Positions 2,462 to 62,183 of a stretch of 64,000 nucleotides of DNA are shown piece by piece. Position 1 is the first letter of the stretch. Each line of letters begins with the position of its first letter. Source of the stretch: a virus. The stretch spans positions 41,141 through 105,140 of the IMG/VR virus record IMGVR_UViG_3300010334_006426, one strand, 5' to 3'. A model generated the notes under the pieces. It saw only the letters and a program-made list of their open reading frames with translations. It ran no database searches and was not told the DNA's origin. The position numbers and the translations under genes were made by a program.

Positions 2462-3210
2462 TAGTAGCCGCCGTAAATTTCTGTATTGTTCACAGACATG
2501 TCAAAGATATTTTTACTGCTAAATTTATCTGAACTTTCTGGATAACTAGAAGGCCTTGGGCTATATGTAACATCGTTAGGTAGGTTTGTTGTAATAGTTC
2601 CATATCTTTCATTATCGTAGACTTGGTTGCTACCCTTTTCTTGAGGCAGATTAGGTTCAAAAGAATAGTCAAATCTCTTTGCCTTTAATAACCATACATA
2701 ATGGCCCATTAAAGGATTTATTTGTGAATTCTCTTGATCTAAACGCTCTGTAATTTCATACATCTTTCCATCACGGTCTCCTGGTCGTGAGTTTCCGTAT
2801 TCTGCTAGCTTAAATACATCACCGGCTTTAGGTTCAGCATCAGGTGGAAAAGTAGCGTAAAAAGAACTTATGTGCATGTACGCGGTACATGTTTCATCAC
2901 TCATATAGCCAAATTTACTAAGTATAAGGGCATTCTCAGATAACTGTATTGCCATAACAACATCTTTTGGATCTTCAAATCTAGAAGTAGGCTGCTCCCC
3001 ATATACGTTATCAGCAGATAATAAATTATAGCTATTTCTATAATATTTTACTTTTTGACCATACAAATCTAATTGTTCACGCCAGTAGTTGCTATATAAC
3101 TGTCTCTCACATTCATTATTATCTTTCTCTGTAAACCTTAACGTACTTGTTGTATATTTTAATGGATAGGTTCTAATGCAGTTTGTTCCGGTATATCTAT
3201 CGACACTCAT
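2458..3210 (-). CDS. 14: gp14-like neck (head completion) protein
   Basis: A 250-residue protein close in length to T4 gp14 (256 residues). It carries features I associate with the T4 neck family: an early segment YWREQLDLYGQKVKYYRN, then DNVYGEQPTSRFEDP, and a C-terminal block with a GDVF, YGNSRPGDRDGKMYEITERL and GHYVWLLKAKRFDYSFEP pattern. gp14 joins gp13 to seal the filled head before tail attachment. A gp13-like gene lies at 41846, far away and on the other strand. The start overlaps the stop of the upstream minus-strand gene. Assigned from memory of the family, so moderately sure. Confidence 0.6.
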   Translation of the reverse strand: MSVDRYTGTNCIRTYPLKYTTSTLRFTEKDNNECERQLYSNYWREQLDLYGQKVKYYRNSYNLLSADNVYGEQPTSRFEDPKDVVMAIQLSENALILSKFGYMSDETCTAYMHISSFYATFPPDAEPKAGDVFKLAEYGNSRPGDRDGKMYEITERLDQENSQINPLMGHYVWLLKAKRFDYSFEPNLPQEKGSNQVYDNERYGTITTNLPNDVTYSPRPSSYPESSDKFSSKNIFDMSVNNTEIYGGYY

Positions 3211-3572
3211 TTTTGAAGAATATAACCTCCCAGGTTGTGGTCAAACTTTAATAAAATGCCTGTATTACCTAGAGATTTTGGTGTGTTTGGGTTGACCCTA
3301 GAAATACCGTATTTAGTGCAAATTTTTTGGATTTCATCTTGAGATAAAGCCTTTCTATTTGTATTTGAAGTTCTTAAATCATTCATAGCTTGTATAGACT
3401 TTGGATCTACTTTGTGCATATCAGGAACCGTTTGCGCGTGCTTTCTGAATCCAGGATCTTTTATAACTTTACGGTGACGTTGTGTTGGCTTGAGCTCTGT
3501 TAGCGTTCCTTGATTCCAAGTTGTTATTTCCTGAATTAATATATTATTAAATATTTTTTCGAAAATACTCAC
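3207..3572 (-). CDS. hypothetical protein, late gene (GTG start)
   Basis: A 121-residue basic protein starting with GTG at 3572, 4 nt after a perfect TATAAATA box. The middle is polar and basic (RHRKVIKDPGFRKHAQ); residues 75-95 (LSQDEIQKICTKYGI) look like a small helical DNA-binding or docking segment, and the tail ends in hydrophobic strands (GILLKFDHNLGGYILQK). No family recognised. It overlaps the gp14-like gene by 4 nt, so a head-neck role by association is possible. Confidence 0.6.
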   Translation of the reverse strand: MSIFEKIFNNILIQEITTWNQGTLTELKPTQRHRKVIKDPGFRKHAQTVPDMHKVDPKSIQAMNDLRTSNTNRKALSQDEIQKICTKYGISRVNPNTPKSLGNTGILLKFDHNLGGYILQK

Positions 3573-3576
3573 ATAT

Positions 3577-3584
3577 TATTTATA
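3577..3584 (-). promoter_or_regulatory. late promoter TATAAATA
   Basis: Perfect T4 late consensus, 4 nt (ATAT) before the GTG start of the 121-residue gene and directly after the U-tract of the upstream terminator. A transcript starting here would have almost no leader. Confidence 0.65.
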
Positions 3585-3586
3585 AT

Positions 3587-3613
3587 AAAAAAGCCGTCAT
3601 AAGACGGCTTTTC
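3587..3613 (-). terminator. intrinsic terminator
   Basis: AAAAGCCGTC (3589-3598), loop ATAA, GACGGCTTTT (3603-3612): a perfect 10-bp stem. Read on the minus strand it follows the stop of the acidic protein at 3633 and is followed by a T-run. The symmetric A/T flanks could let it work in both directions. Confidence 0.85.
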
Positions 3614-3632
3614 TACTTTTATGTAAGGTTCT

Positions 3633-4559
3633 TTATTTAAAGAAATCGCCAGCCTTGTAACCTGGTGCGTTTACTTTATTGTTCTTGCCTTGTAAGGAAT
3701 GACCCTTACTATCAGGTAGAGCAGAAGGCTTACCATCCATTGTTACACCTTTGGTGTCACCGGAAGCCTTGGAGCTCTTAGCATGGCCAAGCTTACCTGG
3801 AACTTTATTGTTCTTGCCTTGTAGGGATTGACCTTTACTATCGGGAAGTTCTTCTAATTCCGTGGCTTCACCAGCAACAGCTTCTTCATCTTCATCTTCA
3901 TCTTTCTCTTTCTTGTCGGCCTTACTCTGTTCATCTTCGTCGGAGCCAGCTTCTTCAGCGCCAGCTTCTTCAGCGCCAGCTTCAGATCCTTCTACATCTT
4001 CTTTATCTTCGCCGTGTTCTTCAGAGCCACCTAGTACATCGCCGAGCATATCATGTAGCTTCTGAGCAACATCGCGAGGAAGAGTTACTGTAACATCTTC
4101 GTGTTCACCGCCAAGGTCTTCAGCTTTATCAGCCTCAGCACCCTCGGGGCCGGCTTGAATGCCTAAATCAAAGGCATCATCCTTCATTACATCTTCGTAA
4201 AGTCTATCAAAAATTGATTTGCTCATATTATTATTTATATTCGCTGGATCCTTTTTTTCAAGAGCCGTAGAAAATTTTTGTGGCTCAAAATGATTATTTT
4301 TTTTAGCAGTTTTTGGATCCACTATATCTTTACTAAACCCTTCTGCAGCCTCTGGGCCAGTATTTTTTAAAGAAAAAGCATTTTTATCACTTCCCTTAGA
4401 GGTAATTTTCTTAGTATCTATTTTTTTATCCTTAGCAGAGGCAAAAGTATTCAAAGTTTTAACAGTCTTCTCTTCAACGACATTTTGCTTTATTTCAGGG
4501 CTTTTTTTCATAGCCTCGTAAACTAACCCTATATCCTTTATACTTTTTACTCTTGTCAT
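3633..4559 (-). CDS. acidic low-complexity protein, possible prohead core or internal head protein
   Basis: A 308-residue, largely disordered protein. Residues 1-110 are Lys/Ser/Thr-rich. Residue 112 begins a second natural start (MSKSIFDRLYEDVMKDD). Residues 150-250 are extremely acidic, Glu/Asp/Ala-rich, and the C-terminus has two copies of LPDSKGxSLQGKNNKV. Very acidic, repetitive proteins occur in T4-like prohead cores and as internal head proteins, which is the basis for the suggestion; there is no specific family match. An internal TATAAATA box precedes the second start, so a 197-residue short form is likely. The gene ends in a strong terminator and its promoter is divergent from the terminase. 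Confidence 0.65.
   Translation of the reverse strand: MTRVKSIKDIGLVYEAMKKSPEIKQNVVEEKTVKTLNTFASAKDKKIDTKKITSKGSDKNAFSLKNTGPEAAEGFSKDIVDPKTAKKNNHFEPQKFSTALEKKDPANINNNMSKSIFDRLYEDVMKDDAFDLGIQAGPEGAEADKAEDLGGEHEDVTVTLPRDVAQKLHDMLGDVLGGSEEHGEDKEDVEGSEAGAEEAGAEEAGSDEDEQSKADKKEKDEDEDEEAVAGEATELEELPDSKGQSLQGKNNKVPGKLGHAKSSKASGDTKGVTMDGKPSALPDSKGHSLQGKNNKVNAPGYKAGDFFK
3673..3848 (-). repeat. two direct 47-nt repeats inside the acidic gene
   Basis: Copies at 3673-3719 and 3802-3848 differ at only a few positions and encode the repeated peptide LPDSKG(Q/H)SLQGKNNKV. This is tandem duplication within a disordered tail. Confidence 0.75.
4232..4239 (-). promoter_or_regulatory. internal late promoter TATAAATA
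   Basis: A perfect box 5 nt before the in-frame ATG at 4226 (MSKSIF). The box itself is translated as Ile-Asn-Asn-Asn within the longer protein. Confidence 0.6.
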
Positions 4560-4591: not shown

Positions 4592-6307
4592 ATGGGAGAT
4601 AAAGAAAAATATTATCTAGGCAACGAAAGGCTTCCTACTACCAGCACGAAGTTTGAGTACACCCCGGATATGATAAACGAGCTTAAAAAATGCAAAAAAA
4701 ACTTATTGCATTTTGCTGAAAACTACTTCTTTATCATTAATTTAGATAGAGGTAAAGAAAAAATTAAGCTATACTCTTGTCAAAAAAGAGTTTTAAGAAG
4801 TTTAAGAGATAGCCGTTTTATAATATTGCTATCTTCTAGACAGAGCGGCAAAACAACACAAATGACTATATATTGCCTTTGGAATGCATGCTTTAACGAT
4901 GATCAAAGAATATTAATTGTAGCTAATAAAGAGCAGACAGCAAAAAATATATTTAAAAGAATAAGAATGGCATATGAGATGTTGCCTAACTTTATAAAAC
5001 CTGGAGTAGTAGAGTATGGTCAAACTAGCATGACACTCACCAATGGTAGCAGCATAGGTATCAGTACAACCAGCAGTGATGCAGGTAGAGGCGACAGCTG
5101 CAATTGTTTAATTTTAGATGAGCTAGCCTTTATCGACAATCATATAGTTGATAAATTCTGGGAATCTGTTTACCCTATTATTAGTAGTTCTAAGAAAAGT
5201 AAAATTTTTATAGCTAGTACTCCTAATGGTACGGATAATCTTTTTTACAGATTGTTCAAGGGAGCTGAAGAAGGTGATAATAACTGGAAAGCAGAAAGAA
5301 TTGATTGGTGGGAAATACCAGGTCGTGATGAAAAGTGGAAACATGATACAATTAAAACATTAGGCAGTCTCGAGACATTTTCACAAGAATTTGGAAATGA
5401 ATTTTTGCATGGTGGTGAAAGTAGTCTCAACGAGCAACTATACAATTCCTGTTTAAGGGATTGTAGGGAGCCTGAATTTATTTTTGAAGAAGGAAAATAT
5501 TTACTGTGGGAGGAGCCTAGGGAGGGAAGACTCTATACCGTTGGTGTTGATGTTAGCGAAGGTGTAAATGAATGCGCTAGTGTAGCGCAAATTTTAGATA
5601 TTACAGATTTATCGCATGTAGAACAGGTTGCAGTTTTTCATACTCGCAACACACCACCATTTCAATTTACCTCAAAACTTTTAGATATTTTAAATCAGTG
5701 GGGAAGACCCCCGGTTTGTATAGAGAGAAATAGTTGCGGTGCTCAGGTAGTAGAGCAGTTAAAATTCACACACGGGTATGAAAATATTGTTTCATGGGGG
5801 GCTAAGGCGGGTGACAAAACAGAATTCAAAAGGGTGGGTATTCTTTCACACACAAATACAAAATACAGAGGTATTACTAATATGAGATATTGGGTAAATG
5901 AGTTAAAAGCTATAAAATTCAGAGACATTAATACATTAAAAGAATTTAAAACTTTTATAAGATACCCTAATAATACCTGGGGTGCTAGGCCAGGTGCAGA
6001 TAGCTATGATGACCGTGTTATGGCCTTGGTTTGGGCATTAATAATTTTAGAAAATGAATTATGTAGTAGATATTTTGATGTTGTAAAGCTTGATGATTGT
6101 GATAGGCCTCAAGTTTTAAAATCTCTTGATTATGGAATTAGAGGTGTAATTAGCCCCTTAAGTTTATATAGTAACGAGAAAGATTCTGGTATAAACACGG
6201 CATTACCGACTATATTTCAAGAAGACGCAGCTTCTGCTGACCTGGAGATGGACGATTTAAGAAGACAAGGCTGGTACTTGCCAGGTGAATCTTATTTTGA
6301 TAAATAA
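4592..6307 (+). CDS. 17: terminase large subunit (gp17)
   Basis: A 571-residue packaging motor and headful nuclease; T4 gp17 has 610. The ATPase domain shows Walker A SSRQSGKTT (81-89), Walker B LILDE (173-177) and the coupling motif STPNG (209-213). The RNase-H-like nuclease domain follows with D320 in GVDVSEG, E378 in CIERN and D473/D474 in YDDRVMAL, matching the acidic triad of the gp17 nuclease. It assembles on the portal and translocates DNA into proheads. All key residues are present. The stop codon overlaps the promoter box of the next gene. No portal gene (gp20) is seen in the window. Confidence 0.95.
   Translation: MGDKEKYYLGNERLPTTSTKFEYTPDMINELKKCKKNLLHFAENYFFIINLDRGKEKIKLYSCQKRVLRSLRDSRFIILLSSRQSGKTTQMTIYCLWNACFNDDQRILIVANKEQTAKNIFKRIRMAYEMLPNFIKPGVVEYGQTSMTLTNGSSIGISTTSSDAGRGDSCNCLILDELAFIDNHIVDKFWESVYPIISSSKKSKIFIASTPNGTDNLFYRLFKGAEEGDNNWKAERIDWWEIPGRDEKWKHDTIKTLGSLETFSQEFGNEFLHGGESSLNEQLYNSCLRDCREPEFIFEEGKYLLWEEPREGRLYTVGVDVSEGVNECASVAQILDITDLSHVEQVAVFHTRNTPPFQFTSKLLDILNQWGRPPVCIERNSCGAQVVEQLKFTHGYENIVSWGAKAGDKTEFKRVGILSHTNTKYRGITNMRYWVNELKAIKFRDINTLKEFKTFIRYPNNTWGARPGADSYDDRVMALVWALIILENELCSRYFDVVKLDDCDRPQVLKSLDYGIRGVISPLSLYSNEKDSGINTALPTIFQEDAASADLEMDDLRRQGWYLPGESYFDK
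6299..6306 (+). promoter_or_regulatory. late promoter-like GATAAATA
   Basis: Lies 4 nt before the ATG at 6311; the same bases encode the last residues of the terminase and part of its stop codon. Confidence 0.45.
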
Positions 6308-10039: not shown

Positions 10040-10978
10040 ATGGCATTATCTAATCCAATTACCGACGCTTTTCAGGGCTTAGCATCTAATACAGTTGGTA
10101 TTGGTAGAGGAATAAACCCCTTAAGTCAGCCACAAATTACAGACATTCTCGGGTTTAATATACCTGGCGTCCCATTAATCAGTACAAGAGATTATTTCCT
10201 TCTTCAACTTCAAAGCTGGCTTACGGCTATACCGTTACAAACACAATGGATTGCAGTTATAGACAGTTTTCCATATTGCTTAAGAACTGAAATACTTCAA
10301 AATATGGAACGTTCTGATGGCGGTAAAAAAAGCTATGATATAGATCGAGCTAAAGCAATTTTAACTAGCTATCCATTTCAAAAAGTAATAGGTTGTGTAT
10401 TTGCACAAGGGGCTTTCGTACCTGGCGAGCAGCTAACAGTTAGAGACACTGCTTTAGATAATAACAGAGGATTTATACCTGGAATAGTTGCTGAAAAAAG
10501 AGTGGGATATAGCGGGTCACCTTTGAGATTAGATTTCTTAGAAACCAATACAAGTATAGTTGATTTTATCTTCAGGCCCTGGGTAATGTTAGCTAGTCAT
10601 TATGGGTTAGTCGCTAGACCAAATGATATGCCAGGCAGCAAAGATTTTTATAACGTTAAGTCAAACATAACACTTCTTTGCTATACAAGAAGCTATCAAA
10701 ACGTAAGTCAAATTCCGCGAAAAGTTTTTACTTTTTATAATGTCGTCCCCACTTTAATCAATAATTTTACATTAGACTATAAAGAAGAACCTCAACAAGC
10801 AACTGCCTATAGCGTTAATTTTACTTATACAAACTATACTATTCAAAATAGTATGTATTTCCCTATTGCGGATATCATTAAGACAGTTTCTAATGCAGCG
10901 AATGGCAGCTATTCGCCTGTTGTTTCGCCGCTACAGAATTCATCTAATTCCCCCGTCAATGTAGGTGGCTTTTTCTAA
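10040..10978 (+). CDS. 54: gp54-like baseplate tail-tube initiator
   Basis: A 312-residue protein (T4 gp54: 320). The C-terminal two thirds carry tube-fold features: SPLRLDFLETNTSIVDFIFRP, YGLVARPND, a strand LLCYTRSYQ, VPTLINNFTLDYKEE and a final SVNFTYTNYTIQ strand. gp54 starts tube polymerisation on the baseplate top. The position directly after gp19, before hub genes, fits. A gp48 role would be the main alternative, but the next-but-two gene suits gp48 better. Confidence 0.6.
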   Translation: MALSNPITDAFQGLASNTVGIGRGINPLSQPQITDILGFNIPGVPLISTRDYFLLQLQSWLTAIPLQTQWIAVIDSFPYCLRTEILQNMERSDGGKKSYDIDRAKAILTSYPFQKVIGCVFAQGAFVPGEQLTVRDTALDNNRGFIPGIVAEKRVGYSGSPLRLDFLETNTSIVDFIFRPWVMLASHYGLVARPNDMPGSKDFYNVKSNITLLCYTRSYQNVSQIPRKVFTFYNVVPTLINNFTLDYKEEPQQATAYSVNFTYTNYTIQNSMYFPIADIIKTVSNAANGSYSPVVSPLQNSSNSPVNVGGFF

Positions 10979-55849: not shown

Positions 55850-56770
55850 TTACTGTCTAACAGTCTTAGTAAAGTACTTCCACTTGTCCCACATGGCCCA
55901 ATTCTCTTTCAATAACTCTTGGCTGCTGGCCCGGATAGGATTAATGTCAATGCCACCGCGTCTCACATACAGACACGATACCATCAATTCTTCTGGCTTA
56001 ACCAGATCATACAACCGCTTATAGATGGTCTCGCAAATCTCTTCATGGAAGTGACATTCATCTCTGAACGAAACAATGTACTGCAATAAAGAGGTTTGAT
56101 TGAGCTCGTAAGGTCCTTTGTAATGAATATAAACATCCCCCCAGTCCGGTTGAGATGTGACCCTGCAATTACTCTTTAACAGTGCTGAATGAAAGCGCTG
56201 CACTTTATTTGAGTCACCTTCCAACCAACCCAATAAATTTGGATCTTCTTTGTATCCTCTTGCCTTGATTGTCGTGACATCAATATTATTTTCAAGTGTA
56301 GGGTATGAGCTAGTAGGAAATAGAGATGGATAATGCATTGCATCATCAATTGCTTTTGTGAGTCTGACACACACCCTAACTTCAGTTTCAAGCAATTTGG
56401 AAAGATCATTCTCCATCACAGCTTCAAGCTGTTGCAACACACTGATAATATTGCCTTGATACTTCTCCATATTAAACGAATTCATGTAGAGCTTGATGGA
56501 CTTGGACTCAACAATATACTTGTTTGTGGCTGGGTACACAACTTTAGCTATGGCCGCAATTGGCATGCCTTCACTTGTTAAGCAAGACACTTCATAAGCA
56601 TTCCACACATCATAGCCACAGAAGGGAAGATTCTCATCACTAATACCCAGATGCTTTCTGTTGTTAGCTCTAGGCTCACGGACTAAAAGCGAGGGGTCAT
56701 AGGTACACTTGTACCCAGTTATTTTACCAAGATGCTTTGATATGTTACTATTGTCTAATTCCGTATTCAT
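55850..56770 (-). CDS. queF: bimodular 7-cyano-7-deazaguanine reductase (QueF)
   Basis: A 306-residue QueF of the long E. coli type (282 residues there), which reduces preQ0 to preQ1 with NADPH. Visible: TYDPSLLVREPRANNR near 23-38, the QueF motif VESKSIKLYMNSFN (87-100), catalytic C202 in LLKSNCRVTSQPDWGDV with D209, H242/E243 in HFHEEICE, and the RRGGIDINP segment (270-278). All key residues are intact. It is last in the minus-strand cluster, overlapping the kinase by 23 nt. It is clearly richer in G+C (53% in 55921-55980) than upstream genes (35% in 58441-58500), which suggests a recent gain from a bacterium. Confidence 0.93.
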   Translation of the reverse strand: MNTELDNSNISKHLGKITGYKCTYDPSLLVREPRANNRKHLGISDENLPFCGYDVWNAYEVSCLTSEGMPIAAIAKVVYPATNKYIVESKSIKLYMNSFNMEKYQGNIISVLQQLEAVMENDLSKLLETEVRVCVRLTKAIDDAMHYPSLFPTSSYPTLENNIDVTTIKARGYKEDPNLLGWLEGDSNKVQRFHSALLKSNCRVTSQPDWGDVYIHYKGPYELNQTSLLQYIVSFRDECHFHEEICETIYKRLYDLVKPEELMVSCLYVRRGGIDINPIRASSQELLKENWAMWDKWKYFTKTVRQ

Positions 56771-57329
56771 TAAGTTTTATTTTAATTGCTTCCATGCGTT
56801 CTTCCACTGTTCCCCTTAAAACAGTTATCTTTCCTTTTAATCTCTCATCTGACAACCAAAAATTCTCGTACAAATCAATAATTGCATCTCTAAACTTTTT
56901 ATCGGTACTTCTCTCACCATCATCCACCAACGAAACATCATGTGGACTTGGATAGAAGATATGATCATACTTTTTAATATAATTTGTATAATACAGTAGA
57001 CCCAAGCTATTAGATACAGGAAAATCATTTAACTTATCTCTAGCAAAATAACTTGTATACACCATTCCATCCATCAAACAGCGATCATGCAATATGCCTT
57101 GAAAATTAAATCCTTTATAGTTGTAAAATAAATTCTCAAACTCTTTATTGAGAATTAATGTTTGCGTCACATCATTAGCACCTTCCTCATTTATATCGCA
57201 ATTATGCCAACGCTTAATTAACCTAGTTACTTCATCAATATAGCATAGCTTAGAACCATAATACTCTTTGCACTTCTTTAAAAGAGTAGTCTTACCCGAA
57301 CACTGAGGACCTGTAAACGTAAAAATCAT
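56748..57329 (-). CDS. P-loop kinase, AAA_28/NadR-like
   Basis: A 193-residue protein. Walker A GPQCSGKTTLL (7-17). The DRCLMDGMVY segment (about residues 82-91) fits the substrate-binding Asp-Arg pair of NadR-type ribosylnicotinamide kinases and deoxynucleoside kinases, and KITVLRGTVEERMEAI is the end of the fold. It should phosphorylate a nucleoside, nucleotide or a related small molecule; the substrate is not visible. TATAAT lies 6 nt before the start. A role in base-modification supply is inference from context. Confidence 0.75.
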   Translation of the reverse strand: MIFTFTGPQCSGKTTLLKKCKEYYGSKLCYIDEVTRLIKRWHNCDINEEGANDVTQTLILNKEFENLFYNYKGFNFQGILHDRCLMDGMVYTSYFARDKLNDFPVSNSLGLLYYTNYIKKYDHIFYPSPHDVSLVDDGERSTDKKFRDAIIDLYENFWLSDERLKGKITVLRGTVEERMEAIKIKLNEYGIRQ

Positions 57330-57364
57330 AACACAATTATACTAGACAAATTAAAAAAATAAAG

Positions 57365-57508
57365 CTATTTCTTAAAAATCTCACTAATTTTTCTCTTAAT
57401 AATTTCTAGCCATGTTTCTTCGATAAAGTCTAGCTCATCAATAGGATATCCCTTGAGTGGATGATTGTCATCATCTACCCAGGTGTGCTTGGTACGGGGT
57501 TGTTTCAT
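57365..57508 (-). CDS. 47-residue small protein
   Basis: An open frame of 47 codons whose ATG overlaps the TGA stop of the Nmad1-like gene (ATGA), so it is very probably translated by coupling. The product begins MKQPRTKHTWVDDDNHPLKG, then has a proline and an amphipathic helix (DELDFIEETWLEIIKRKISEIF). It is too short to name a family. Confidence 0.55.
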   Translation of the reverse strand: MKQPRTKHTWVDDDNHPLKGYPIDELDFIEETWLEIIKRKISEIFKK

Positions 57509-57852
57509 TTGCACCATTTCTTTCTCTTGACTATTTCAGCTATTATACAGTATACCGCGGTATCACTAAACGCATCAAAAATCGGCTCATTTGCAGTTTC
57601 AAACGTTTTCTTTCTCAATACCATATTGATTAATCTCTGAATCTTGTCATTGAGTCGCACCACGATAGCAGAAATAGATGCAACAATATCCTCTTCTCTA
57701 TGTAGGTCAGATCCTAAGCTAATATTGTGCGGCCCGTAATCATTTTGCTTTTTACAGAAAATATTGTATTGTTCACTCTGAATTTTCTTAAATTCTTTGC
57801 ACGTTTCAGGGTACGTAGTTTCAACTAGCTTGATGAGATCTTCAGGATTCAC
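57505..57852 (-). CDS. DUF1599/Nmad1-like small protein
   Basis: A 115-residue helical protein, GTG start at 57852. The pattern KKQNDYGPHNISLG, then VRLNDKIQRLINMV and ANEPIFDAFSDTAVYCIIA is that of the DUF1599 family, which I recall as nucleotide-modification-associated domain 1 (Nmad1), found near DNA hypermodification genes. The alternating Asp/Asn and DK..R motifs resemble an all-alpha NTP-binding fold. Its start lies inside the end of the formyltransferase (11 nt). Family name from memory. Confidence 0.6.
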   Translation of the reverse strand: MNPEDLIKLVETTYPETCKEFKKIQSEQYNIFCKKQNDYGPHNISLGSDLHREEDIVASISAIVVRLNDKIQRLINMVLRKKTFETANEPIFDAFSDTAVYCIIAEIVKRKKWCK

Positions 57853-58426
57853 TTTGAATTATATTATAATCGGTTAGAAAGTTTTTCCAGGTATTAAATG
57901 CACAATCGTGTAATGAGCAGTATACCTCAGTTAGGGTCAAACCTTCGATTCCTATTTCACCACTAGCTACAATTTCACCATCGTCAACGCCCGGGGTAAC
58001 CTTATGAATAACGCAACCCGCGTTCTTATAGCCTCTCGTAAAGGCTCTTTCTTGTGGATTGAATCCTTTTAATTCAGGATGTTTACTAATAAGACCAGGA
58101 TGAAGATTATATATTTCGTAGTTGTTACATATTTCTTCCGGAATAATTCTTAAGTACCCATGTAATGTAATGATAGGATTACTAAATCTAGTCAATATAT
58201 TTTTATATTCTTCCAATGTTGGTTTCTGAGATATATTATATAGAAAGATAGAATTTAATTTATGTTCTCTAAACTTAATATTATTGATAAGATCGCTATT
58301 AGTTGTATCATGATTTTGTTTGTTTGATATAATTGCGTCGGGGTATTTTCCGAAAGCATTTGAAAGATTATAAATCTCCGTGCCTGTTTGAGAGAAGAAA
58401 GTAACCCAGGGTCTACTATTGCTCAT
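57842..58426 (-). CDS. PurN-like formyltransferase (candidate preQ1 formyltransferase, DpdN-like)
   Basis: A 194-residue protein of the 10-formyltetrahydrofolate-dependent transferase fold (E. coli PurN: 212). Seen: ITLHGYLRIIPEE, EIYNLHPGLISKHPELKG (Asn and His of the catalytic site), CVIHKVTPGVDDGEIV (catalytic Asp). The N-terminal phosphate-binding loop of PurN is not obvious (TFFSQTGTEI), so GAR is an unlikely substrate. In phages with 7-deazaguanines a formyltransferase named DpdN has been proposed to formylate dPreQ1; the neighbourhood of QueF and DpdA fits. Overlaps both neighbours by 11 nt. A second, decayed 3' end lies at 59990-60059. Confidence 0.75.
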   Translation of the reverse strand: MSNSRPWVTFFSQTGTEIYNLSNAFGKYPDAIISNKQNHDTTNSDLINNIKFREHKLNSIFLYNISQKPTLEEYKNILTRFSNPIITLHGYLRIIPEEICNNYEIYNLHPGLISKHPELKGFNPQERAFTRGYKNAGCVIHKVTPGVDDGEIVASGEIGIEGLTLTEVYCSLHDCAFNTWKNFLTDYNIIQSES

Positions 58427-60056
58427 AAATGTATTTTTTGTGCCAGCTGTAAAAGCTAGGTGCTAAATTTGATGATAGCATGCTTTTATCGTGAATATAT
58501 TTAAAAGTATTTTTCGCTAAAGCCAGTTTTCTTGAATCTATAGAAAAGCTGGATGACCAGTCAGAGACATTTCTCTCATAATGTAAAGCTAAATTAAGCC
58601 AAAGATAATCAGGAAAAATACTAAACCCATTAATATTATTCTCTATACAATTAAATTTACTGTAATATTGATTTCTTACATTTTGTAGCATACTTTCAGT
58701 AAAGCCATTTTTTTGTTCAGTCCAAAAACTAGTATCATCTCGTTGAGTAAATTTATAGACAGCGGTAAGATACTGATAGATAGAATCATATAAAATTGTT
58801 GTTGAATTGTTATACTCCTCGAGAAGAGCCTTCAATGGTGTTCCTTTATTTTCTTTTTGAATAAAAAATGCAATTTTTTTAGCTGCAGATACAGACAGAT
58901 ACAATGCATTTGAAAGAAGAGGTTCAAGAAATCCCGTAGATATACCTGCGGATACTATGTTTCTTACTGCTGCTACTTTGTATCTCCCTGGAACAAAATT
59001 AATTAACCTAGGTTGTTGTATCCATGTCTCCTCCGGAATACTAAGTTTCAACTCATTAAAAGCCTCTTCATCGCTAACATGCTTACTACTAAACAAATAC
59101 CCGTTACCTAGGCGACTAAAAAGAGCGATTTCAAATCTCCAACCATAGTTCATAGCAATGGAGCGTGTATATGCTGTCATTTGAGTTTCTTTTTCTGTAT
59201 AATTGCTATTAACCAACCAAGCCTTGTCGACAGGAATATATGTAAAATTTTCCCATTCTACATCTGTATGTTTGAATAAAGTTCTAGCAAAACCACTAGA
59301 ATCAATATACAGATCAGCTGTAAATAATTCTCCTGTCGAGGTCTTAACACCTAAACATTCATTATTTCTTATTACAGGTATAATTTCTTCTTCAACTATA
59401 TTAATGCCTAATTCTATTGCTGTTTCCTTTAAAACGGAAGTAATTTTATTAGCATCTGTATGGTAGGCCCAGGACCATAGACTATTGGCTAAATATCTAT
59501 CACCGTCAAAAGGACATTTATTTTTTTCTAAAAATCCGAAATGTTCATTTATATACGGATTAACGTCATTAGATATTTCTTTTTTCTTATATAATTCTAA
59601 TACATAGTCGGTAAATCTATCTTTATCGTTTAAAACAGATCTATAGCTACTGTTGTTATTTTGATAGAAATAACCGTTAAGTAAGTCGCTACCGTGTAGG
59701 TTATAAGAAAATCCAATATAGGTATACTCACCTTTATTTTTATAAAAATTTTCTAGCTTATTGGCAAATTTAAATACGCTATCCGTCTTACGCATAAATT
59801 CAGTTTGATTATATCCAAGTAATGCGGTATAGAAAGTGGCCACCTGTGGCACCGTACTTTCACCCACACCGAGTGTAGGGATATTTTTACTATGAAAAAT
59901 ACTTACCTCTACGGATGGATTGAATTTTTTAATCGCTACGGCTACAGAGTAGCCTGCATTACCGCCTCCTACAACAATAACCTTTTTTATCATCGTCTAG
60001 TTATATTATAATCGGTTAAAAGGTTTTTCCAGGTATTAAAGTAATGAGCTGTACAC
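57859..60056. repeat. direct repeat pair flanking the flavoprotein and formyltransferase genes
   Basis: 57859-57925 and 60001-60056 match over TTATATTATAATCGGTTA, the following TTTTTCCAGGTATTAAA, then after an 11-nt gap TAATGAGCxGTAxAC. Only a few substitutions. The repeats bracket a 2-kb cassette. Confidence 0.75.
58416..59993 (-). CDS. flavin-dependent-halogenase-like flavoprotein with altered motifs
   Basis: A 525-residue FAD enzyme similar in length and layout to tryptophan halogenases. Present: FAD site GGGNAG (9-14), GVGESTVP (42-49), VFKF with K75 at the position of the essential Lys79 of PrnA, YHTDA (177-181), DSSGF (231-235), RLGNGYLFSS (294-303). Altered: WxWxIP is WRFEIA (285-290), and the EPLEST motif with the catalytic Glu346 is EPLLSN (357-362), so Leu360 replaces the Glu. 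This makes a classical tryptophan halogenase unlikely; another flavin oxidation or a different halogenation is possible. VirX1 of a cyanophage is a precedent for a viral member. Starts inside the formyltransferase-like remnant (ATGA). Confidence 0.8.
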   Translation of the reverse strand: MIKKVIVVGGGNAGYSVAVAIKKFNPSVEVSIFHSKNIPTLGVGESTVPQVATFYTALLGYNQTEFMRKTDSVFKFANKLENFYKNKGEYTYIGFSYNLHGSDLLNGYFYQNNNSSYRSVLNDKDRFTDYVLELYKKKEISNDVNPYINEHFGFLEKNKCPFDGDRYLANSLWSWAYHTDANKITSVLKETAIELGINIVEEEIIPVIRNNECLGVKTSTGELFTADLYIDSSGFARTLFKHTDVEWENFTYIPVDKAWLVNSNYTEKETQMTAYTRSIAMNYGWRFEIALFSRLGNGYLFSSKHVSDEEAFNELKLSIPEETWIQQPRLINFVPGRYKVAAVRNIVSAGISTGFLEPLLSNALYLSVSAAKKIAFFIQKENKGTPLKALLEEYNNSTTILYDSIYQYLTAVYKFTQRDDTSFWTEQKNGFTESMLQNVRNQYYSKFNCIENNINGFSIFPDYLWLNLALHYERNVSDWSSSFSIDSRKLALAKNTFKYIHDKSMLSSNLAPSFYSWHKKYIYEQ

Positions 60057-60059
60057 TTG
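59990..60059 (-). pseudogene. remnant of a formyltransferase 3' end
   Basis: Between the synthetase stop and the flavoprotein start. Read on the minus strand it gives HYFNTWKNLLTDYNITRR then TGA, against AFNTWKNFLTDYNIIQSES in the intact formyltransferase. An 11-nt deletion shifts the frame before the match. It has no start of its own. It is a scar of duplication or exchange. Confidence 0.8.
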
Positions 60060-60061
60060 TC

Positions 60062-61339
60062 TTAGACACGGAACCCTTTCTTTTCATTTTCCTTATAAGG
60101 AAAATTATTTTGTATAAGGTACTCTCTTAGCGGTGCTTTGTAAAAGTTATTTTTTAACTCTGGCTTTAGCCATAAGAATTCTTGTACTAATTGTTTATCT
60201 AGGTAGGGGTAGCGCGCTTCAATACCTAAACAGCCTATAATATATTCATCCTTAGTTAAGTATTGTCTCATTGTACCATTAAAAAAGTTTTTCCATGGAA
60301 AGATGTTATTTAAATTTTCTGGAAATTTTCCCTGAAAGCAAGAAGATTTATCTTGGTCATAATTACCTCTTACAAAGTAATCCCCTATAATTTCATCACA
60401 CCCTGTACCAGAGAAAAAGATCTTACATCCGTCGTTTTTTGCGCGAATTCCAATATGCATTAGCGGAATAGACGACCGATCTTCTAGGTAGCCATATTCC
60501 GTGTTAATGTCTAATTCGCAATATTTTTGAAAATGAGACAGAACATATAGATTATTTTCACCGCTATAATCGATTAGTTCAGTCTTTTTTAATAAATTGC
60601 TCCGATCATTAATCACCTGTATGTTTTCATTGTTTAGTATACTATATGCAGTAAAAGGTTTATTGGTATTATGTAATTCACAGGCTATACAGCCACTATC
60701 ATACCCACTACTTAAACCAATAAAAATTTTCTTATCTGTTAGTGATCGCTTCTGTATAGCATTTTTAAATGCATTTATCCAATCCGTATACGTGTTTTTA
60801 TATTGATTTAAATCAAACTTAATATTGATATATTTTGTTAATGCATTAGTTTTAATATTGTAAACTAGTGTTGTATTTGGTGCTTGTGGATCGATGCAAT
60901 TAATATCACACTTTATTAGTGCGCTCTTATAAGTTGCAACGTGAAAACCGTCTTCTACTGAAACCCAGAGAGGCTTTGTTTTAAACGGGTCTGTAGTTAC
61001 TATTATTCGTTGTTCTTTATTATCAATCAATACAATCGCGTATTCGCCATCTAGATATTTTGCAAATGTAATACCGTGCTTCTTATATGTGTCTATAATA
61101 AAACTCGCTTCATTGCTACCTGAATAGTTATATATTTCTCCATTAAAGAGCACGTCAATACCGTCAGCACTATACGGCTGTATACAATTACCTGCAATAT
61201 CTAGACGGTTATGAATAAAGGTGCCGATTTTTGAATGATGTATACGGGTATCATCTGGACCTCTAAATTGCAAGAGATTGTTAGCTGCTTCTATTTCTTT
61301 TATTGTTAGTTGTCGGGTTGTAAATAAAATACTACACAT
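60062..61339 (-). CDS. asparagine-synthetase-like amidotransferase, C-terminally truncated
   Basis: A 425-residue protein; E. coli AsnB has 554. Glutaminase domain: nucleophile C2, RGPDD (26-30), NGEIYNY (66-72), DGEYA (97-101). Synthetase domain: PP-loop LSSGYDSG (209-216), SGTGCDE (310-316), EARYPYLD (374-381), KAPLREYL (401-408). It ends at KKGFRV, where AsnB continues for more than 100 residues, and the formyltransferase remnant begins at once. It would use glutamine nitrogen to amidate an activated carboxylate or similar group. Gat-QueC, the amidotransferase-QueC fusion that makes archaeosine in some phages, is an alternative, but the AsnB signatures argue for the AsnB family. An AGGA lies 11 nt before the ATG. 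Confidence 0.8.
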   Translation of the reverse strand: MCSILFTTRQLTIKEIEAANNLLQFRGPDDTRIHHSKIGTFIHNRLDIAGNCIQPYSADGIDVLFNGEIYNYSGSNEASFIIDTYKKHGITFAKYLDGEYAIVLIDNKEQRIIVTTDPFKTKPLWVSVEDGFHVATYKSALIKCDINCIDPQAPNTTLVYNIKTNALTKYINIKFDLNQYKNTYTDWINAFKNAIQKRSLTDKKIFIGLSSGYDSGCIACELHNTNKPFTAYSILNNENIQVINDRSNLLKKTELIDYSGENNLYVLSHFQKYCELDINTEYGYLEDRSSIPLMHIGIRAKNDGCKIFFSGTGCDEIIGDYFVRGNYDQDKSSCFQGKFPENLNNIFPWKNFFNGTMRQYLTKDEYIIGCLGIEARYPYLDKQLVQEFLWLKPELKNNFYKAPLREYLIQNNFPYKENEKKGFRV

Positions 61340-61370
61340 AAACTGAAAATCCTGACAATAACTTTTTTTA

Positions 61371-62183
61371 TCAACGTCTAATTATATGCTTAAACATTTT
61401 AACATTATAATTAACCAAATCTAATTGCTCTGGTGTAACTTGATGTTCTATAAGATCTGCAAGCTTTGTTGACGGCTTTGTATCTAACCCGTAATCAGCA
61501 TCATACCTTAATCCATGGATAGCAGCAACAATTGGATTGCTAGTATCGCAAGAAACAATATTGTAAATATTTCTATCGATATAATATCGAAATTCTTTAG
61601 CAAGCGAACACCCTAATAGGTGATGCGGCTTATCCCATCTCCATACACCATTATTTATTAAATCAGAAATAAAGCGTTGACGACCTGAACACCAGCGCTC
61701 TAGATGATGCCATCCTTGCCCTGTGACTTGATAATAACTAAAATCAAAACTGATAGCAATCATATCAGCATTTTCAGCCATAAACTTATAGCACTCTCTT
61801 AATTCTTGCCAATTTTTACCCTGTACTGCACCTATTGCTTTTGTTTGAAAAGTGTTTTTTAATTCAGATTTCATCAATTCAAATGCTTTATAGCTTTCAA
61901 CTGTTCTGTGCATATCTTCCAGAACATCCGGTACTATAAACATATTAGGCTTTAATTCTTTTGCAGCATCAAAAAATTGACTTGGGTCAAAAGCCTTACC
62001 TAGCTCGAATATAGAATTATCCAGGAGTACCTCCCTATCATAAACACTTCTCGCTGACATAAAGAAATCCTTATACGCTTTATGTTGACTTAGTAAATGT
62101 ACTAGACAATAATCAAAATCATTATATTGTCTAGATAGCTCTAATAAGACTAAGGGAGATTCATGAGATACCTTCATCTTCAT
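61371..62183 (-). CDS. dpdA: DpdA-like guanine transglycosylase (TGT family)
   Basis: A 270-residue protein (start taken at ATG 62183; an in-frame TTG at 62210 adds nine residues). It carries the TGT barrel signatures in changed form: LLDNSIFELG (53-62, position of DSGGFQ), VPDVL (84-88), AVQGKN (119-124, position of the VQGG loop), HHLLG (187-191) and CDTSNP (212-217, position of the catalytic Asp). There is no CxCxxC zinc site, as in phage DpdA. DpdA exchanges guanine in DNA for a 7-deazaguanine. It is first in the operon-like cluster. TATTATAAT abuts the ATG. Confidence 0.8.
   Translation of the reverse strand: MKMKVSHESPLVLLELSRQYNDFDYCLVHLLSQHKAYKDFFMSARSVYDREVLLDNSIFELGKAFDPSQFFDAAKELKPNMFIVPDVLEDMHRTVESYKAFELMKSELKNTFQTKAIGAVQGKNWQELRECYKFMAENADMIAISFDFSYYQVTGQGWHHLERWCSGRQRFISDLINNGVWRWDKPHHLLGCSLAKEFRYYIDRNIYNIVSCDTSNPIVAAIHGLRYDADYGLDTKPSTKLADLIEHQVTPEQLDLVNYNVKMFKHIIRR

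Follow-up and report, generated by a model that had tools for sequence, protein, structure and literature searches.

Does an uncultured virus that carries a DNA guanine transglycosylase operon encode all that is needed to replace the guanine of its own genome, and at which stage would the replacement happen? The question is raised by eight minus-strand open reading frames (ORFs), delineated by ORF and profile analysis, at positions 55850-62183 of a 64,000-nucleotide stretch of DNA. This stretch, referred to here as the window, comprises bases 41141-105140 of the 105,140-base virus record IMGVR_UViG_3300010334_006426 (contig label G000), and its source is an uncultured T4-like virus of bacteria. 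Taken together, the gene content points to a preQ1/formyl-preQ1 DNA modification system that is complete within the phage, and two novel-looking genes in its midst, an AsnB-like amidotransferase and a flavoprotein, are probably passengers.

In our favoured reading, which we consider probable, the virus has a complete pathway of its own for replacing guanine in its DNA by a 7-deazaguanine, and the operon supplies the half that inserts and caps the base. FolE, QueD, QueE and QueC, encoded on the same contig outside the window, would make preQ0, and QueF would convert it to preQ1. The transglycosylase, of the type presumably named DpdA3 by Cui et al. 2023, would then put preQ1 in the place of guanine and, as in Campylobacter phage CP220, probably does so at every G or almost every one. 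A PurN-like formyltransferase (FormT, a candidate for what we take to be the DpdN of the same authors) would formylate the aminomethyl group to give formyl-dPreQ1, while a kinase, an Nmad1-like protein and a GMP reductase would manage the pool of guanine nucleotides. The genes for the AsnB-like protein and the flavoprotein would be recent arrivals from glycan or tail-fibre cargo, dispensable for the modification. We infer these substrates, the order of the steps, the extent of replacement and the passenger status from the gene identities, catalytic residues and conservation described below, all of which are read from the sequence.

A transglycosylase of the TGT/DpdA superfamily

By sequence, the transglycosylase matches unnamed PHROGs only (phrog_19058, 2e-53), and phmmer found no match for it in the PDB. 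Searches with tblastn showed it to be 41% identical to a protein of Flavobacterium phage immuto annotated as a DNA guanine transglycosylase, and 45% identical over 91% of the query (E 3e-49) to a hypothetical protein of phage CP220. An AlphaFold (AF2) model was built from 14 homologues, with a predicted local distance difference test (pLDDT) score of 87. All 12 of its PDB matches at E<=0.001 belong to the tRNA-guanine transglycosylase (TGT) superfamily; the best are TGTs, followed by the DNA preQ0 insertase DpdA (7ui4) and Cap10. The TGT-like motifs D55 (LDNSIFE), Q121 (VQG), G191/L194/A195 and D213 (CDTSNP) are invariant in the 14 homologues, as is D86; they were paired with the catalytic Asp and base-pocket positions of TGTs by motif order, not by superposition. 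Judged by the modelled fold and these motifs, the protein is a member of the TGT/DpdA superfamily, the assignment on which the earlier note had made its interpretation depend.

The CxCxxC zinc site of tRNA TGTs is absent from the window DpdA, and also from the 9g DpdA and the Dp-1 enzyme, so this site is not a defining feature of phage DpdA. The idea that its loss marks a small-molecule substrate was dropped, because the classical phage DpdAs lack the motif too. As for the extent of replacement, 100% of the deoxyguanosine (dG) in CP220 and CPt10 phage DNA is replaced by 2'-deoxy-7-amido-7-deazaguanosine (dADG) (PMC8306585; also PMC10273834), and large-scale dG replacement is therefore the natural prediction for the window phage.

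Predicted supply of preQ0, reduction and formylation

QueF aligns along its length with Vibrio cholerae QueF (3bp1, 5e-50) and has both the QueF_N and QueF domains, with C202, D209, H242, E243 and the ESKSxKLY motif conserved in 94 homologues. At 265 bits it scores below the TIGR03138 equivalog cut-off of 293, which makes it a divergent phage member that is strictly 'QueF-like'. A QueF-type protein of phage Dp-1 gave dPreQ1, according to Hutinet 2019 (PMC6884629). In FormT, which has a Formyl_trans_N domain and is 46% identical to immuto gp204, the N-H-D triad (N107/H109/D148) is at least 95% conserved among 82 homologues. Its position in the operon suggests that it is probably a DpdN candidate formylating (d)preQ1.

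FolE, QueD, QueE and QueC are absent from the window, as had been noted before, and all four are present on the same contig; QueC and QueD also occur in longer related contigs. Since the contig encodes the four enzymes, host preQ0 is not required. Of the two sources suggested in the earlier note, the host supply was set aside as unnecessary and the supply by other genes was borne out. Its proposed conversion of dG to dPreQ1 or formyl-dPreQ1 also appears sound, with DpdA in the TGT superfamily, the QueF active site intact and FormT inside the operon. A stand-alone class II glutamine amidotransferase, which may supply ammonia to QueC or alter its product, lies directly after QueC (contig G000 31946-32620; locus L003 11946-12620); three relatives likewise have a class II amidotransferase domain near QueC.

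Conservation of the operon

Two scans of viral contigs yielded about 100 loci, and after removal of identical DpdAs, 80 distinct loci reach QueF. QueF was the end point of this census, so its presence in 80/80 operons is by construction. The kinase sits between DpdA and QueF in 80/80 operons. FormT is present in 62, with few exceptions immediately behind DpdA, Nmad1 in 43, and GMP reductase, inside the operon, in 17; a DUF5664 gene is found in 12. Locus L025 holds a further DUF5664 gene masked by an overlapping ORF, and L119 was grouped with the DUF5664 loci in the tree on account of its near-identical neighbours. About 80 other viral contigs show the same order of core genes, so the arrangement is not due to chance. 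Gene order defines a conserved core, DpdA-FormT-(GMP reductase)-Nmad1-kinase-QueF, which predicts genome-wide preQ1/formyl-preQ1. The kinase and Nmad1 slots, overlooked previously, are conserved and are the most informative parts of the operon.

There are 18 sister operons that consist of DpdA-kinase-QueF only. Plain dPreQ1 DNA is predicted for these minimal operons without a formyltransferase (L086, L087, L090-L092, L094 and others). The GMP reductase (GuaC) of the window contig lies outside the operon, and most long relatives likewise have theirs elsewhere; it scores 357 bits against the NF003966 cut-off of 344, and TIGR01306 is not reached. Its gene (G000 2916-3881; L002) adjoins glycosyltransferase-like genes. 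Among the sister operons, L089 has an inorganic pyrophosphatase gene inserted between kinase and QueF (10230-10742), and two others have a radical-SAM-like gene, of the type found in phage glycan clusters, in that place (L048 11446-12765; L059 10566-11891).

The AsnB-like gene and the flavoprotein

Among the DpdA operons, the AsnB-like gene occurs in that of the window only, and in 0/80 sister operons. At 129.6 bits the protein falls below the asparagine-synthase cut-off of TIGR01536 (267.1), with Cys2 and the PP-loop present. Its homologues, at 30-73% identity, are located mostly in glycan clusters. The 73%-identical protein is encoded among glycosyltransferase-like genes on two contigs, both of which also carry a DpdA operon at a distance of about 20 kb. 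More distant AsnBs occur in other DpdA relatives, where the three neighbourhoods examined are glycan or radical-SAM clusters, and a homologue in cyanophage S-SCSM1 also lies in a glycan cluster.

The flavoprotein gene is present in one of the 80 sister operons (L008; 66% identity), and its family occurs in only two (the window and L008) of 17 related contigs and phage genomes; a profile scan of genome contigs with the flavoprotein alignment found no relative. Its phage relatives, in a cyanophage and a pelagiphage, stand beside tail-fibre, 2-oxoglutarate (2OG)-oxygenase or terminase genes. The protein shares long homology, an FAD motif and the counterpart of Lys79 (K75, aligned with RebH K79) with the halogenases RebH, PrnA and VirX1. 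It differs from them in both copies by the change of the catalytic Glu to Leu (EPLES to EPLLS) and by a degenerate WxWxIP motif (GWxWxIP to GWRFEIA). Halogenation as the default activity was rejected, as the flavin-halogenase motifs are lost.

The overall GC content and that at third codon positions (GC3) of the two genes are similar to those of DpdA and FormT, and their status as probable passengers therefore rests on synteny and motif loss. The simplest reading of these gene neighbourhoods is that the operon, which adjoins tail-fibre genes, collects cargo; this lowers, without abolishing, the chance that either protein acts on the base.

Kinase and pyrophosphatase genes beside DpdA

The P-loop, the DR(C) motif and D137/R140/R147 of the kinase are conserved. 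A P-loop kinase gene adjoins the DpdA3-type gene in the window group and in CP220, MA9V-3, BSP7 and Youna2; in immuto it follows two genes downstream. Phage phiST has an AAA_18 kinase-like gene near DpdA with a degenerate P-loop (GEICSGKD). No P-loop kinase was found within 2.5 kb of six classical DpdAs (9g, Dp-1, AL-2, a Stenotrophomonas phage, Hilltopfarm and PaMx25), and none near the DpdA3-like locus of Rhizobium phage RHph_I1_18. At that locus the DpdA3-like match (L135 4941-6209) is inside a DUF3310-annotated protein and is followed by a dUTPase-like gene; DutZ, a dUTPase-like enzyme of Z phages, hydrolyses dATP and dGTP. The window contig also encodes a second small kinase-type P-loop protein (G000 5280-5975; L002), with no NCBIfam match.

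Pyrophosphatases of differing families are found near DpdA, namely DUF5664 in a marine sister clade, PRA-PH in immuto and MazG in phiST. The DUF5664 gene of the marine clade scores 73-74 bits against a Pfam gathering score of 27 (PF18909, dATP/dGTP diphosphohydrolase) and occupies the Nmad1 slot. The Nmad1-like protein itself scores 13.7 bits against DUF1599 (gathering score 25), and 11 of 15 homologues match this family weakly (best E 0.002). Checked as a MazG-like protein by fold, by PDB profile and by hhalign against DUF5664, MazG and PRA-PH, it gave no significant fold match and an hhalign probability of 1.8% to the DUF5664 set. Co-occurrence of FormT and pyrophosphatase was discarded as a functional link, since there are only two independent pairs on the DpdA tree and clade membership can explain them.

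Kinase and pyrophosphatase genes are associated with DpdA, and the mechanism that would join them bears on the timing of guanine replacement, which this module makes testable.

Before or after replication, and other possible end products

The same core could also work before replication, with DpdA acting on dGMP rather than on DNA. A deoxynucleoside triphosphate (dNTP) pyrophosphatase (DUF5664, MazG, PRA-PH or possibly Nmad1) would turn dGTP into dGMP, DpdA3 would exchange the base to give d(preQ1)MP, with FormT perhaps acting at that level, and the kinase together with the host nucleoside diphosphate kinase (NDK) would make the triphosphate for the polymerase to insert. The kinase in every operon of the census, kinase-like genes by DpdA in CP220, immuto, phiST, MA9V-3, BSP7 and Youna2, and their absence within 2.5 kb of the six classical DpdAs all favour this scheme, as do the different pyrophosphatase families in different lineages and the inorganic pyrophosphatase in L089. 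Destroying dGTP would, moreover, make little sense if dG had to be polymerised first. There are precedents in Z-DNA phages, where DUF5664 hydrolyses dATP and dGTP and DmtZ swaps the base on dAMP (PMC12884076), and where MazZ makes dGMP from dGTP (PMC8342488). Known DpdA and TGT enzymes, however, act on polymers, 18 operons have a kinase but no pyrophosphatase, a pyrophosphatase identity for Nmad1 finds no significant fold match or hhalign support, and the DUF5664 protein of phage Wayne prefers dATP tenfold over dGTP (PMC12884076). For this virus we regard replacement before replication as possible, though on balance doubtful. The general proposal drawn from these analogies, that DpdA3-type enzymes may be deoxynucleotide transglycosylases which build a 7-deazaguanine dNTP with a dGTP pyrophosphatase and a kinase, so that complete replacement would be pre-replicative, is offered a shade more tentatively. 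Two further reports speak against replacement before replication: Crippen 2019 reportedly saw no phosphates of dADG in cells under infection, and Cui 2023 is said to argue for post-replicative insertion.

The remaining alternatives concern the product. The final base might be dPreQ1, with the formyltransferase acting elsewhere, for example on a sugar or nucleotide precursor. The 18 minimal operons fit this, and PurN-type folds also formylate sugars, but where FormT is present it almost always follows DpdA immediately, and in immuto it lies near DpdA, which makes this alternative unlikely. The earlier note had instead proposed that an amide may be added, or the pyrrole oxidised or halogenated, by the AsnB-like protein and the flavoprotein, to yield an undescribed base. 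Both genes are indeed part of the operon and share its orientation, the flavoprotein gene overlaps FormT and keeps its slot in L008, and K75 is retained; set against this are the near-absence of both from the sister operons and of the flavoprotein family from related genomes, the mostly glycan or tail-fibre surroundings of their homologues, and the lost catalytic Glu and WxWxIP motif, and we find such extra chemistry improbable. Least credible, and very much so, is that the genes raise queuosine (Q) in host tRNA: QueF and the preQ0 genes also feed that pathway, but CP220, whose DpdA is related, has modified DNA, no part for a formyltransferase in the Q pathway is known, and no QueA, QueG or QueH was noticed, though no systematic search for them was made. 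Some points still weigh against the favoured pathway of insertion and capping in DNA. The flavoprotein gene overlaps FormT by 11 nt and its L008 copy occupies the same slot, so that the two are probably transcribed together and the flavoprotein could have been recruited; the 105-kb contig may be a fragment of a genome; and sequence alone makes it hard to tell QueF from QueF-L in phages, as noted in Hutinet 2019 (PMC6884629).

Comparison with known systems

A close parallel in arrangement is Flavobacterium phage vB_FspM_immuto (NC_055915), which also has FolE, QueD, QueE and QueC and the same order DpdA-FormT-kinase-QueF; in addition to the identities given above, its kinase is 28-29% and its QueF 47% identical. 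It differs in having no AsnB, flavoprotein, Nmad1 or GMP reductase, and in carrying its own PRA-PH pyrophosphohydrolase two genes before DpdA, plus a phosphoribosyltransferase. In CP220, a Campylobacter Firehammervirus, the kinase adjacent to DpdA is 34% identical; its base, dADG, is not a preQ1 derivative, and no FormT stands beside DpdA. Phages 9g, Dp-1 and nt-1, with DpdA or DpdA2, share a preQ0 pathway and a DNA enzyme of the TGT superfamily, but replacement is partial in Dp-1 (1.7% of Gs) and nt-1 (at most about 0.1% per derivative) according to Hutinet 2019 (PMC6884629), and 9g and Dp-1 have no kinase beside dpdA. In the Z-DNA cassettes (MazZ/DUF5664/DmtZ/PurZ), a dGTP/dATP pyrophosphatase (DUF5664) is likewise tied to complete base replacement (PMC8342488, PMC12884076), but adenine is the target and there is no TGT-fold enzyme. 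The kinase and pyrophosphatase set beside DpdA resembles the nucleotide-pool cassettes of Z and T4 type.

The census shows a kinase gene alongside the DpdA3-type enzyme in each operon of this family, and in many cases a dNTP pyrophosphatase as well. Phage DNA in which a large 7-deazaguanine stands in for every G is shielded from restriction enzymes. Whether the replacement happens before or after replication can now be answered with purified enzymes and isolated phages (immuto, BSP7). DpdA is assumed to edit DNA after replication. Pre-replicative replacement, if true, would instead resemble the cases of Z-DNA and T4 hydroxymethylcytosine (hmC), and might offer a route to polymerase-made deazaguanine DNA.

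Gene layout

Table 1. Genes of the operon, in window coordinates
Product	Position	Strand	Length and matches
DpdA (DpdA3-like guanine transglycosylase)	61371..62183	-	270 aa
AsnB-like amidotransferase, probable passenger	60062..61339	-	425 aa; PF00733 1e-12, PF13537 1e-10
Trp_halogenase-family flavoprotein, probable passenger	58416..59993	-	525 aa; PF04820 5e-79; RebH 8e-43
PurN-type N10-formyl-tetrahydrofolate formyltransferase (FormT, candidate DpdN)	57842..58426	-	194 aa; PF00551 1e-15
Nmad1/DUF1599-like small helical protein	57505..57852	-	115 aa, weak; phrog_1485 7e-14
Small ORF	57365..57517	-	50 aa; conserved in loci L007, L008, L053
P-loop nucleoside/nucleotide kinase-like (AAA_28)	56748..57329	-	193 aa; PF13521 2e-11, phrog_2107 1e-23
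QueF, preQ0 nitrile reductase	55850..56770	-	306 aa; QueF_N 3e-34; TIGR03138 9e-79

A megablast search with 24 kb against phages gave no match. The eight minus-strand genes are as first described; the five overlaps of 4-23 nt reported with them are in fact four (11, 11, 13 and 23 nt), and the small ORF, previously given 47 residues, has the length listed in Table 1. Gaps of 31 nt and 68 nt separate DpdA from the AsnB-like gene and the AsnB-like gene from the flavoprotein gene, respectively.

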